Of a stretch of 64,000 bases of DNA, positions 24,882-33,172 are shown in pieces. The stretch's first letter is position 1; each line of letters starts with the position of its first letter. A model generated the notes under the pieces. That model was not told where the DNA came from and made no database searches. It saw only the letters and a list, made by a program, of their open reading frames with translations. The position numbers and the translations under genes were made by a program. This DNA is from Firmicutes bacterium HGW-Firmicutes-11 (lineage in GTDB: Bacteria > Bacillota > Clostridia > Peptostreptococcales > Anaerovoracaceae): assembly GCA_002840285.1 (NCBI GenBank), contig PHAE01000002.1, positions 92,304-156,303 on the forward strand, read 5' to 3'.

Positions 24882-24909
24882 TTGACTTCCCACTGTCGTA
24901 TGATACAAT
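24882..24909 (+). promoter_or_regulatory. Predicted promoter of the pilus-like cluster
   Basis: TTGACT-N16-TACAAT upstream of the GspF-like gene. Confidence 0.5.
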
Positions 24910-24941: not shown

Positions 24942-26003
24942 TTGACCATGGCAGATCAAAAAATGAACGGCAACGGTAGAAATCTCCTTACCTTTGGGGA
25001 GTTGTCCGCCTTTTGCCAGCAAATCAGCATGATTCTCAAATCGGGCATCCCTCTCCACGAAGGGCTGTCTTTATTAAAAGAGGATGTTGCGGATTCAGGT
25101 CTGCGAAGCGTCCTTACCATTGTCAGTGATGAAGTCTCGGCAGGAAAGCCACTCCCGGCTGCTTTGGACGCCGCTTCCTCATTCCCAAGTTATATGGTCA
25201 ATATGATCCGTATCGGTTCCGATGCAGGAAAACTGGATGATGTGACCGCTTCCTTGGCAGACTATTACGATCGGGAAGACATGTTGCGACAAAACATCAA
25301 AAGTTCTGTTGTCTATCCCTTGACGCTGACTTTGATGATGTTGGTCGTCATGATGGTCTTTTCCATCAAGGTCCTTCCTATCTTCGATCAGGTGTTCCGC
25401 GGACTGGGCACAACGATGTCACCAGCTGCCCAGGCGATCATGAACGTAGGAATGGCTGCCAGCAAATACTCGATCGCTCTTTTGATCATCGCTGCCGTCA
25501 TACTTGCCGGCGTGGTGTTCTTTTTTAAATCTCAGCGTGGCAGCGCATGGCTGTCACGTTTTTCGTCGTCAGGAAAGCTTTCGGAAAAGATATCCATGGC
25601 TCGCTTTTCCTCATCCATGTCGTTGATGCTGTCAAGCGGACTTGACACTGAGCACGCGCTTCAGATGACGAAATCCGTCATCGCCAACCAGAACGTCAGA
25701 GTCAAAGTCGATCGTTGCTTGGAATTGATCGCTTCCGGTACTCCCTTCGTGGAAGCCGTAGGCCTAGTGGAGCTTTACCCCCGTATGACACTTCGCATGT
25801 TGAGTCTGGGTTTTCAGGCGGGTAATCTTGATACTGTGATGCACACGATCGCCGAAGGCGCGGAAGAAGAGATCGATGCGACCCTGATGCGTCGGGTCGC
25901 TCTCATAGAACCGATCTCAGTCGCCTTCCTTTCTCTCATTATCGGCGTGATCCTGATCTCTGTCATGCTGCCTCTGATGAGCATCATGTCCTCCATCGGA
26001 TAG
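24942..26003 (+). CDS. Type II secretion F / PilC-family inner membrane platform protein
   Basis: FCQQISMILKSGIPLHEGLSLL, LASGTPFVEAV-like segment, C-terminal hydrophobic LIEPISVAFLSLIIGVILISVMLPLMSIMSSIG. Confidence 0.92.
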   Translation: MTMADQKMNGNGRNLLTFGELSAFCQQISMILKSGIPLHEGLSLLKEDVADSGLRSVLTIVSDEVSAGKPLPAALDAASSFPSYMVNMIRIGSDAGKLDDVTASLADYYDREDMLRQNIKSSVVYPLTLTLMMLVVMMVFSIKVLPIFDQVFRGLGTTMSPAAQAIMNVGMAASKYSIALLIIAAVILAGVVFFFKSQRGSAWLSRFSSSGKLSEKISMARFSSSMSLMLSSGLDTEHALQMTKSVIANQNVRVKVDRCLELIASGTPFVEAVGLVELYPRMTLRMLSLGFQAGNLDTVMHTIAEGAEEEIDATLMRRVALIEPISVAFLSLIIGVILISVMLPLMSIMSSIG

Positions 26004-26016
26004 CGGGAGGTTTTCC

Positions 26017-26343
26017 ATGTACGGTAACAATCGATGGAACACTACTTACGATTATAAAAAGGCGTTGGTTCTACCTGTCGCTGTCTTTCTCTGTTTTTTG
26101 CTTTTTTTCATCGTCGGATCATCCCGCGCAAGCCAGGCGGCGGAAAAAGAAACGCTCAAGCATCTTGAATCAGCGGTGATGCAGGCGACAGTGCAATGCT
26201 ATGCCATTGAGGGCGTATATCCTCCCGATGTTGCTTATCTGGAAACCCACTATGGGATCCAGATCGATGAGGACTCCTATGTTGTACATTACGAGGCCTT
26301 TGCCTCAAACATTTTACCAACTGTTTTTGTGATTCAGAAATGA
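26017..26343 (+). CDS. Pilin/GspG-like small membrane-anchored protein
   Basis: N-terminal TM; ATVQCYAIEGVYPPDVAYLETHYGIQID resembles the GspG C-terminal region. Confidence 0.65.
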   Translation: MYGNNRWNTTYDYKKALVLPVAVFLCFLLFFIVGSSRASQAAEKETLKHLESAVMQATVQCYAIEGVYPPDVAYLETHYGIQIDEDSYVVHYEAFASNILPTVFVIQK

Positions 26344-26350
26344 AGGGCGG

Positions 26351-26872
26351 GTGTCTTCGATGATGGGAAAAATGGCAGCAGAAGGACGTCGACACAGCCT
26401 GTTTGAGCTGTTGTTGATGCTGTTTTTGCTTTTCATTTTTGCAGCATCGGCTCTTATCGTAGTTGTGATCGGCGCTGATGTTTATTCCAATATCAACCAC
26501 AACATGGATTCCAACTATGATCTTCGAATCCCACTTTCCTATGTTTCCAATAAGATTCGTCAGGCCGACAGAGAAGGTGCCGTGTCACTTCAAACGAAAG
26601 AGGGAACAACGGTGCTGGTTTTACAAAGCGTGCAAAATGGATCCAACTACGAAACCTGGATTTATGAATACGAAGGATATCTGTATGAAGTGCTTTATGA
26701 GCAGGGCCAAGGCCTTGGCTTGGAAGCAGGCACCCCTGTGATTCCGATCAACGGCTTTTCCATGAAAATGGAGGCAGATAACCTTTTGACTTTGACTGCA
26801 AATGACGCCTCCGGCAAACGCCTCGATCTGCGTCTCGCATTGCGCAGCGATGGAGAGGAGGGTCAGCTATGA
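26351..26872 (+). CDS. DUF4860-like membrane-anchored protein
   Basis: N-terminal TM HSLFELLLMLFLLFIFAASALIVVV; inside the pilus-like cluster. Confidence 0.65.
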   Translation: MSSMMGKMAAEGRRHSLFELLLMLFLLFIFAASALIVVVIGADVYSNINHNMDSNYDLRIPLSYVSNKIRQADREGAVSLQTKEGTTVLVLQSVQNGSNYETWIYEYEGYLYEVLYEQGQGLGLEAGTPVIPINGFSMKMEADNLLTLTANDASGKRLDLRLALRSDGEEGQL

Positions 26873-27255
26873 AGCGACGCCCCGTATCAAAGAGCCATGC
26901 ATTCCTGATCGAGTTGACCATCGTTCTTTTATTTTTCTCATTATGCGCAGCCATCGCCCTTGGGCTTTTTGTGAACGCGCACAATGCAGACGAACGCGCG
27001 CGGTTGACGACTATTGCATTGATGGATCTCCAATCCATCGCCGAAACCGCAAAAGCTACTGAAGATCTGCCAGCGATGCGGACCTATGTGGCAAGCCTTG
27101 TGGACGGAGATGATTACTCGCTTCGCGCGGATTTGAAAGAAGAATCCCGTACCGCGGGAACGATGGCGATCCTGACCTTGTCCGCTGCAGAGCCGGAAGG
27201 CGAAGGACTTTTGGAAATCAAAGTGCAAAAATACTTTGCCGGAGGACTCCAATGA
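26869..27255 (+). CDS. Prepilin-like protein
   Basis: SHAFLIELTIVLLFFSLCAAIALGLF resembles the (F)xxxE type IV prepilin N-terminus with a degenerate cleavage site. Confidence 0.65.
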   Translation: MKRRPVSKSHAFLIELTIVLLFFSLCAAIALGLFVNAHNADERARLTTIALMDLQSIAETAKATEDLPAMRTYVASLVDGDDYSLRADLKEESRTAGTMAILTLSAAEPEGEGLLEIKVQKYFAGGLQ

Positions 27256-27701
27256 AAGAGCGCGTCAGAATGAGTCTCAGCGTCGGGGGACCAACCATCA
27301 TCATGATCTTCGTGATCTTGTGCCTTACCACTTTGGGCACCCTTTCGCTTGTGACCGCGAATACCGATCTGAAACTCACAGAAAAAACCGCCGCATATAC
27401 AGTGGCGTATTATGATGCAGACAGTATGGGCGAGGAGTTTCTTTCTGAAGTTGACGGGATCATAACGTCGGGACGACTTGATTTTCAACAATTGGATGAT
27501 ACATTGTCGCGTCCGTTGGCGGATGGTTCACATTCTATCATTTACAATACACCGATCGGCGAAGAGCAGTTTTTAAGGATCGAATTAGTGATCCCTGCCG
27601 GCTTGGAGGCTGACGCCGATCCCAAATACCACATCGTATCCTGGAAAACGGAAACTGCCCAAGTTTGGGATTATGAAGAGTATCAAATCCAGATCGATTA
27701 A
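27252..27701 (+). CDS. Hypothetical membrane-anchored protein of the pilus-like cluster
   Basis: N-terminal TM (TIIMIFVILCLTTLGTLSLVTA); ATGA overlap with the previous gene. Confidence 0.7.
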   Translation: MKERVRMSLSVGGPTIIMIFVILCLTTLGTLSLVTANTDLKLTEKTAAYTVAYYDADSMGEEFLSEVDGIITSGRLDFQQLDDTLSRPLADGSHSIIYNTPIGEEQFLRIELVIPAGLEADADPKYHIVSWKTETAQVWDYEEYQIQID

Positions 27702-27711
27702 GGAGGGTTCA

Positions 27712-28773
27712 ATGGATATCATTCGGTTCTTTTCCGAAGCTGTCAGTCGTGAGGCATCCGACATCTTTATCATCGCCGGCAAGCCGGCGTCCTTTAAGGT
27801 ACACGGGGAGATCCGTGAATATGGGGATCTTCTTCACGCAGAAGAAACTTACGCATTGATCCATGAAATCTATCGTCATGCAGATCGGGACATGAGCTTG
27901 CTCAACGATACCGGAGATGACGATTTTTCTTTTTCCATCAACGCCATTGGTCGGTTCCGGGTCAACGCCTACAAACAAAGAGGTTCCCTGGCCGCCGTCC
28001 TCCGCCTCGTCTTGTTTGAACTTCCCGATCACGAAACTCTGGGCATCCCGAAAGAAGTCATCGAACTACACAAGAAAACGAAGGGCCTTGTACTTGTTAC
28101 CGGCCCTGCAGGCAGTGGTAAATCCACCACATTGGCTTGCATCATAGATAAAATCAACCATAACCGGAATTCCCATATCATCACTCTGGAGGATCCGATC
28201 GAGCACGTCCACCGCCATTCGAAAAGCATTGTGAGTCAGAGAGAAGTCGCACTGGACACTGCAAGTTATGCCAAAGGACTCCGGGCAGCTCTGCGGGAGT
28301 CTCCCGATGTTATCCTTTTGGGTGAAATGCGGGATTATGAGACCATATCGATCGCGATGTCAGCTGCGGAAACCGGCCAGTTGGTTTTTTCTACCCTTCA
28401 TACCCTGGGCGCAGCGAATGCGATCGACCGGATCATCGACGTATTCCCCCCATCCCAACAGCAGCAGGTACGGGTCCAACTTTCCATGGTGCTGCAGGCT
28501 GTGATCTCGCAGCAATTGATCCCTTCCGTCAACGGTGTGCTCGTTCCGGTGTTTGAAGTCATGTTCGTCAACAGCGGGATCCGCAATATGATCCGGGAAT
28601 CCAAGATCCATCAGATCGATTCGATCATCTATTCCTCCACCGGCGAAGGCATGCGCAATATGGACGCCGGCATCCTGAAGCTTTACGATGATGGAATCAT
28701 CACTGCGGATACTGCAAGCTATTACAGCATGAATCACGATATGGTAAACAAAAAAATCGAAGCCGGTCGCTGA
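27712..28773 (+). CDS. pilT: PilT-family type IV pilus ATPase
   Basis: GPAGSGKSTTLACIIDKIN, ITLEDPIEHVH, ALRESPDVILLGEMRDYETI, TGQLVFSTLHT, DRIIDVFPPSQQ. Start trimmed to ATG behind AGGAGGG. Confidence 0.93.
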   Translation: MDIIRFFSEAVSREASDIFIIAGKPASFKVHGEIREYGDLLHAEETYALIHEIYRHADRDMSLLNDTGDDDFSFSINAIGRFRVNAYKQRGSLAAVLRLVLFELPDHETLGIPKEVIELHKKTKGLVLVTGPAGSGKSTTLACIIDKINHNRNSHIITLEDPIEHVHRHSKSIVSQREVALDTASYAKGLRAALRESPDVILLGEMRDYETISIAMSAAETGQLVFSTLHTLGAANAIDRIIDVFPPSQQQQVRVQLSMVLQAVISQQLIPSVNGVLVPVFEVMFVNSGIRNMIRESKIHQIDSIIYSSTGEGMRNMDAGILKLYDDGIITADTASYYSMNHDMVNKKIEAGR

Positions 28774-33115: not shown

Positions 33116-33130
33116 TTCACGCTCCCTTTC

Positions 33131-33159
33131 GAACATTGTTCTTAATTAGAACATTGTTC
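33131..33159. promoter_or_regulatory. Putative TetR operator: two copies of GAACATTGTTC
   Basis: GAACATTGTTC at 33131..33141 and 33149..33159, each palindromic except at the centre, just upstream of the TetR start. Confidence 0.7.
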
Positions 33160-33172
33160 TACTTTAGAATAC

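Follow-up and report, generated by a model that had tools for sequence, protein, structure and literature searches.

A putative type IV pilus-derived gene module with a PilT-type ATPase, degenerate pilin-like proteins and a transglutaminase-like partner in Clostridia

Introduction

In type IV filament (T4F) machines, PilT motors act on the platform protein. Every T4F system has been described as having a core of four proteins, namely a pilin, a prepilin peptidase, an extension ATPase and a platform protein, and it is standard in the superfamily that minor pilins form tip complexes and that some T4F carry non-pilin effectors at the tip (PMC10191384). The competence (Com) pilus, with eight components, has been called the simplest known T4F (PMC10790768). 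PilT also promotes extension of the mannose-sensitive hemagglutinin (MSHA) pilus of Vibrio cholerae (PMC9815625), and a PilT motor therefore need not be retraction-only. The present work concerns a 64-kb stretch of DNA (the window) from contig C69 of the genome assembly of Firmicutes bacterium HGW-Firmicutes-11 (1.93 Mb in 75 contigs), in which six consecutive genes of the + strand (24948-28773) encode a GspF/PilC-like platform protein (W1), four small proteins (W2 to W5) and a PilT-type ATPase (W6).

Comparison of this operon with its relatives points, at what we consider even odds, to a widespread T4F branch of gut Clostridia with no extension ATPase or prepilin peptidase, in which PilT would be the sole motor, the subunits would be uncleaved and shaft-less, and a surface transglutaminase (TGase)-like enzyme would be powered or presented by the machine.

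Results

The six genes were closely packed, with ATGA overlaps at W3/W4 and W4/W5, and form a real operon. By Pfam and NCBIfam searches, W1 (24948-26003) was identified as a platform protein of the PilC/GspF type (PF00482, two copies, E 6.7e-44), W3 matched DUF4860 (PF16152, E 5.6e-30), and W2, W4 and W5 gave no match above the cut-offs. The most likely start of W1, judged from the sequence, is the ATG at 24948 behind GGAGG, in place of the TTG at 24942 used by the open reading frame caller, and that of W6, judged by its homologues, is the ATG at 27712. No PilB, secretin or prepilin peptidase was found among the genes of the cluster, nor GspC/L/M, the secretin search being limited to these genes; PilM/PilN/PilO and a major pilin were absent both from the six genes and from the compact TGase-to-PilT run of the relatives. 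A preliminary description, made from the window's sequence alone, had proposed a minimal six-gene machine of exactly this composition, with PilT as its only ATPase and without PilB, secretin or prepilin peptidase, and this inventory was borne out; the TGase-like partner, DUF4860 and the ancestry of the small proteins in minor pilins of a type IV pilus (T4P) had been missed, and the signalling role that it offered as an option found no support.

W6 (27712-28773) scored 398.5 bits against the PilT/PilU family TIGR01420 (cut-off, 319.1) and has complete Walker A and B motifs, a His box and an AIRNLIRE-type motif, all of which were conserved in the corresponding columns of the module ATPases. Its best solved relative was the 'twitching motility protein PilT' 2gsz/2ewv of Aquifex aeolicus (E about 8e-99, versus about 1e-22 to 6e-24 for PilB). 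A maximum-likelihood tree (64 rows) grouped the module ATPases in one clade (100/99) on the side of PilT and separated them from PilB (97/99); the divergent ATPase of G227 (L054) was placed outside this clade. Family score, motifs and tree together assign W6 to PilT/PilU and not to the extension ATPases (PilB/GspE/ComGA), and the module ATPases are a clade within PilT. Scores for families of the Com system and of the type II secretion system (T2SS) stayed below their cut-offs (ComGA NF041000, 139.6 versus 300 bits; ComGB NF041012, 113.7 versus 240; GspE TIGR02533, 129.8 versus 630; GspF TIGR02120, 191.3 versus the equivalog cut-off of 424).

For the collection of relatives, one genome per species was scanned with W2; alignment A1 was too diverse for a scan of the collection, and alignment A2 served, giving 144 relatives, from which 80 loci were kept. 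The exact order TGase-GspF-W2-W3-W4-W5-PilT (TGase-W1-...-W6) on one strand was present in 69 of the 80 loci, and because these come from different species, its conservation is more than chance; the gene order on which the earlier claim of a distinct system depended is thus retained. Spacings within the run were small or overlapping. In three further loci all seven genes were present but the TGase gene was inverted or displaced; of the remaining loci, some lay at contig ends. The hosts were mostly Lachnospiraceae and Oscillospiraceae (Oscillibacter, Flavonifractor, Parablautia, Emergencia, Lawsonibacter, Dysosmobacter and others). DUF4860 was detected in 69 of 298 sampled genomes of the window's order and in 7 of 299 of the phylum, in the module context in all seven of the latter.

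Several irregular loci were also recorded. Divergent orphan W3-W4-W5 triplets, with no GspF, PilT, W2 or TGase gene nearby, occur at L238 (G525:C78) and L239 (G574:C1); both genomes carry a full module as well. A CheY-like response regulator replaces PilT in L049 and L168 (G162:C18), with a PilT-type gene of a different PilT subclade about 40 kb away. One in-frame stop each (TAG and TAA, respectively) was found in the module PilT genes at G551:C36:10323-11375 and G617:C2:118867-119697, which represent either pseudogenes or assembly errors.

One transmembrane segment was predicted in each of W2 to W5, in almost all cases oriented with its positive end inward. W2 (26017-26343) has no cleavage motif and is marked by an invariant CYA.EG.YP core, in which C61, Y62, G66, Y68 and P69 were conserved in 81/81 sequences; CYAIEGVYPP, formerly read as a tail, belongs to this core. 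The invariant C61 (81/81) lies in the extracytoplasmic part and has no obvious partner cysteine. W3 (26351-26872), which resembles minor pseudopilins, has no Gly at -1, and W4 (26869-27255), a minor-pilin-like protein, has the conserved Glu at +5 (E15, 79/79) and His in place of Gly at -1. W5 (27252-27701) is GspK/PilX/ComGG-like, with G12 ahead of the hydrophobic segment and Y54 both invariant (79/79). The class III signal (Gly at -1, Glu at +5) is therefore incomplete in W2, W3 and W4 of the window, and the Gly of W3 and W4 is gone in most of the 80 loci as well; the residue five before the invariant Glu of W4 was Pro in 54, Gly in 14 and His in 4 of 79 proteins.

The origin of these proteins is indicated by a genome of the same order, G434, in which L215 is a complete T4P operon in the order PilB-PilT-PilC-pilin(GFTLIELIIV)-W2-W3-PilM/N/O-like-W4-W5 (the PilM/N/O-like genes being assigned by position and sequence, without a family search), with an A24 peptidase gene just past it. 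The W2 counterpart in this operon carries GYSLIELIIV and YYALEGKYPDDL, and the counterparts of W3, W4 and W5 carry GFTLIEILIV, GFTLLEVIIA and GSSIILVLI, respectively. L167, with the order W1-W2-W3-W4-W5-W6-TGase, is intermediate: its W3 (23.4 bits) and W4 (28.3 bits) pass the Pfam N_methyl cut-off of 21.2, and its W2 gives no such match. AlphaFold2 predicted for W3 an N-terminal helix of 57 residues followed by eight strands (predicted local distance difference test score, pLDDT, 91), and for W2 a helix of 55 residues (11-65) with a small head of one short helix and two strands (pLDDT 92). Among PDB matches of the W3 model, those of highest probability (0.75-0.95) were to minor pseudopilins, including one of the XcpV/XcpW complex, and to a type IV-like pilin. 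PDB profile searches gave nothing meaningful for W2, W3 and W5 and a weak match of W4 to PilA (8tj2, E 0.023). With the L215 counterparts and the N_methyl-passing L167 orthologues, W2 to W5 are recognized, as the preliminary description had surmised, as degenerate type IV pilins, traceable to T4P minor pilins. The module itself descends from a complete operon of the L215 kind, the major pilin, PilB and PilM/N/O being gone from its relatives and the peptidase site of W2 to W4 lost in most lineages.

In the relatives, the gene ahead of gspF encodes a predicted secreted protein of two domains, nearly always found with the module, that matches Transglut_core (PF01841) at E-values as low as 5e-26. 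Its expected catalytic triad of Cys, His and Asp (C277, H307 and D335 in L090 numbering) is intact, these residues being invariant in 72/72 aligned proteins, and the nearest solved structures were 3isr, a putative cysteine protease/transglutaminase-like enzyme (E 2.3e-8), and a protein-glutamine glutamyltransferase. The linkage is kept in rearranged modules, the TGase gene being last in L167 and following W5 in L054. The genome of the window has a single Transglut_core match, on C6 (L066/L170), with the same two-domain build and a Cu_amine_oxidN1 domain. A conserved Tyr-rich C-terminal end was also noted in these proteins, e.g., that of L142:7641-8723 (Y358 in 72/72, Y362 in 67/72 and Y364 in 70/72, L090 numbering). 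Since most relatives have this gene within the operon, and since one ATPase can run a T4F machine, as in T2SS and Tad, the module might work in protein secretion as a T2SS-like piston or short pseudopilus, the TGase-like protein being its cargo. We consider this rather unlikely: the TGases have their own N-terminal signal region (a lipobox-like pattern in 40/72 by a simple expression, the others resembling ordinary signal peptides), the host bacteria are probably monoderm, and a growing pseudopilus is improbable because W2 to W4 lack processing sites.

A24 peptidases (PF01478) and T2SSE ATPases (PF00437) were counted across whole genomes for the 70 handles present in both searches; the module-bearing genomes are related and mostly draft, so that the counts are not independent, and G336 and G522 have identical coordinates, one genome apparently being counted twice. 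In ten genomes (G240, G322, G324, G333, G334, G335, G337, G339, G342 and G372), the ATPase of the module was the only full T2SSE match, with one additional weak partial match in G342 (28.9 bits), and PF01478 matched in none of the ten; G322 is the genome of a cultured strain, Oscillibacter valericigenes An860. As these module-only genomes have neither an extension ATPase nor a detected prepilin peptidase, two of the four T4F core proteins are missing there. The -1 residue of W4 was Pro in nine of the ten. Each of the remaining 59 genomes had a T2SSE ATPase besides that of the module, together with one or more A24 matches; one exception is G012 (78% complete), in which A24 was matched but no further full T2SSE was present.

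The genome of the window does not belong to the module-only group. Its PilD is on C57, a Tad locus is on C46, and a separate T4P locus of 8.1 kb (L010, G000:C50:1-8141) contains pilC, PilM, N/O-like, PilX-like and minor pilin genes, a sigma factor and two major pilins. No PilB was found in the assembly, and since contig C50 starts inside pilC, its absence is most simply explained by an assembly gap. Thus pilD and the PilM and N/O-like genes, which the preliminary description had asked after together with pilB, were located, and pilB was not. The operon could then be an auxiliary part of an ordinary T4P encoded elsewhere (here on C50), with PilT for retraction and the W proteins as minor pilins; besides the genome's PilD and T4P cluster, this agrees with G003, G165 and G252, which have a PilB but no listed PilT-type ATPase other than that of the module, and with V. 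cholerae, whose PilT can serve more than one pilus (PMC9815625). The separate T4P, however, comes with a PilC, PilM/N/O and pilins of its own, the module likewise has a distinct platform protein and ATPase clade, the module persists in the ten module-only genomes although these have no PilB and no detected PilD, and a separate PilT-type gene accompanies PilB in G330, G331 and G508, among others. We therefore regard this explanation as unlikely, and the earlier concern that a T4P elsewhere uses these proteins applies only in part, the window's genome having a separate T4P that may or may not share this PilT.

That the module is a competence-like pseudopilus, taking the place of ComG for DNA uptake in Clostridia, was judged very unlikely. 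The inventory of platform, four minor-pilin-like proteins and one ATPase is ComG-like, and ComEC was present in 9/10 module-only genomes; however, ComEC was also present in 20/20 relatives without a DUF4860 match, so that its co-occurrence does not discriminate, and the ATPase is of the PilT and not the ComGA type, there is no major pilin, no prepilin peptidase was detected in the module-only genomes, and the TGase would be left unexplained.

In the surroundings of the operon, a promoter-like site (24882-24909, + strand; TTGACT-16-TACAAT with TG (TGn) before the second hexamer) was recognized by consensus match only (10/12). The 5′ neighbour is a diaminopropionate ammonia-lyase gene and the 3′ neighbour an ABC-F gene, both on the opposite strand. 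Neither an Rfam family nor a tRNA was found in the window. A tandem repeat at 33126-33169 (18-bp unit, 2.4 copies) holds the palindrome TAGAAC-ATT-GTTCTA, possibly an operator. Anti-phage defence was considered and rejected, PADLOC having given only weak P-loop matches.

Discussion

We propose, with a probability of about 0.5, that the module is a T4P-derived, membrane-anchored motor, a short-stroke and shaft-less device resembling a tip complex, which acts with a surface TGase. W2 to W5 would remain in the membrane and form a fixed complex, the equivalent of a minor-pilin tip complex with no shaft, and ATP hydrolysis by PilT would turn or lift the GspF platform, by which the W complex would be moved up and down over a short stroke. 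By analogy with the non-pilin effectors carried by T4F tip complexes, the complex might present, activate or pull on the TGase-like enzyme, and the enzyme might then cross-link or clip proteins of the surface or cell wall. A long pilus would not be formed.

Several points weigh against this proposal. The fold matches had weak E-values (0.13-0.3 for W3; above 1 and, in Foldseek, not significant for the pilin matches of W2). W5 retains its Gly, and 14/79 W4 proteins retain Gly at -1 with Glu at +5, so that some subunits may be processed where PilD is present; G372 keeps canonical W3 and W4 motifs though no A24 peptidase was detected in it. The operon in the window has no linked TGase gene, its homologue being on another contig. 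The motion and the coupling to the TGase are drawn from gene linkage, and the TGase could instead be acted on as a substrate, or simply be a co-regulated neighbour; the function as a whole is a prediction from comparison.

The module was not found in the literature searched, mostly non-subscription papers, in keeping with the earlier view that it is under-described, and it is not described in the relevant passages of Imam 2011, Denise 2019 and Pelicic 2019. DUF4860 was likewise not mentioned in the literature searched, most subscription papers lying outside its coverage, and would gain a function if the proposal is true. In bacteria of the gut (Oscillibacter, Flavonifractor, Lachnospiraceae and Parablautia), the module would offer a natural test of the action of PilT in the absence of PilB and of the role of minor-pilin complexes that have no shaft.

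Among known systems, the type IVa pilus shares with the module a GspF/PilC platform, a PilT ATPase and, in the L215 operon, four pilins homologous to W2 to W5, whereas the module has no PilB, PilM/N/O or major pilin, has mostly lost the motifs of W2 to W4, occurs in some genomes without PilD and has a TGase partner. The Com pilus (ComGA-ComGG and ComC) likewise combines one ATPase, one platform and four minor-pilin-like proteins, but the module differs in its PilT-clade ATPase and TGase, in having no major pilin and, in module-only genomes, no peptidase. The T2SS pseudopilus (GspG-K, GspF and GspE) is similar in its GspF-like platform and in the resemblance, with a weak E-value, of the DUF4860 model to a minor pseudopilin of the XcpV/XcpW complex, but the module operon has PilT instead of GspE and no secretin or GspC/L/M. 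In the V. cholerae MSHA pilus PilT also contributes to extension (PMC9815625), but that system extends with a dedicated ATPase, MshE, and forms a filament. Because the module is smaller than the Com pilus and departs from two of the four core requirements, it is regarded as a T4P derivative and is not classed as a T4P.

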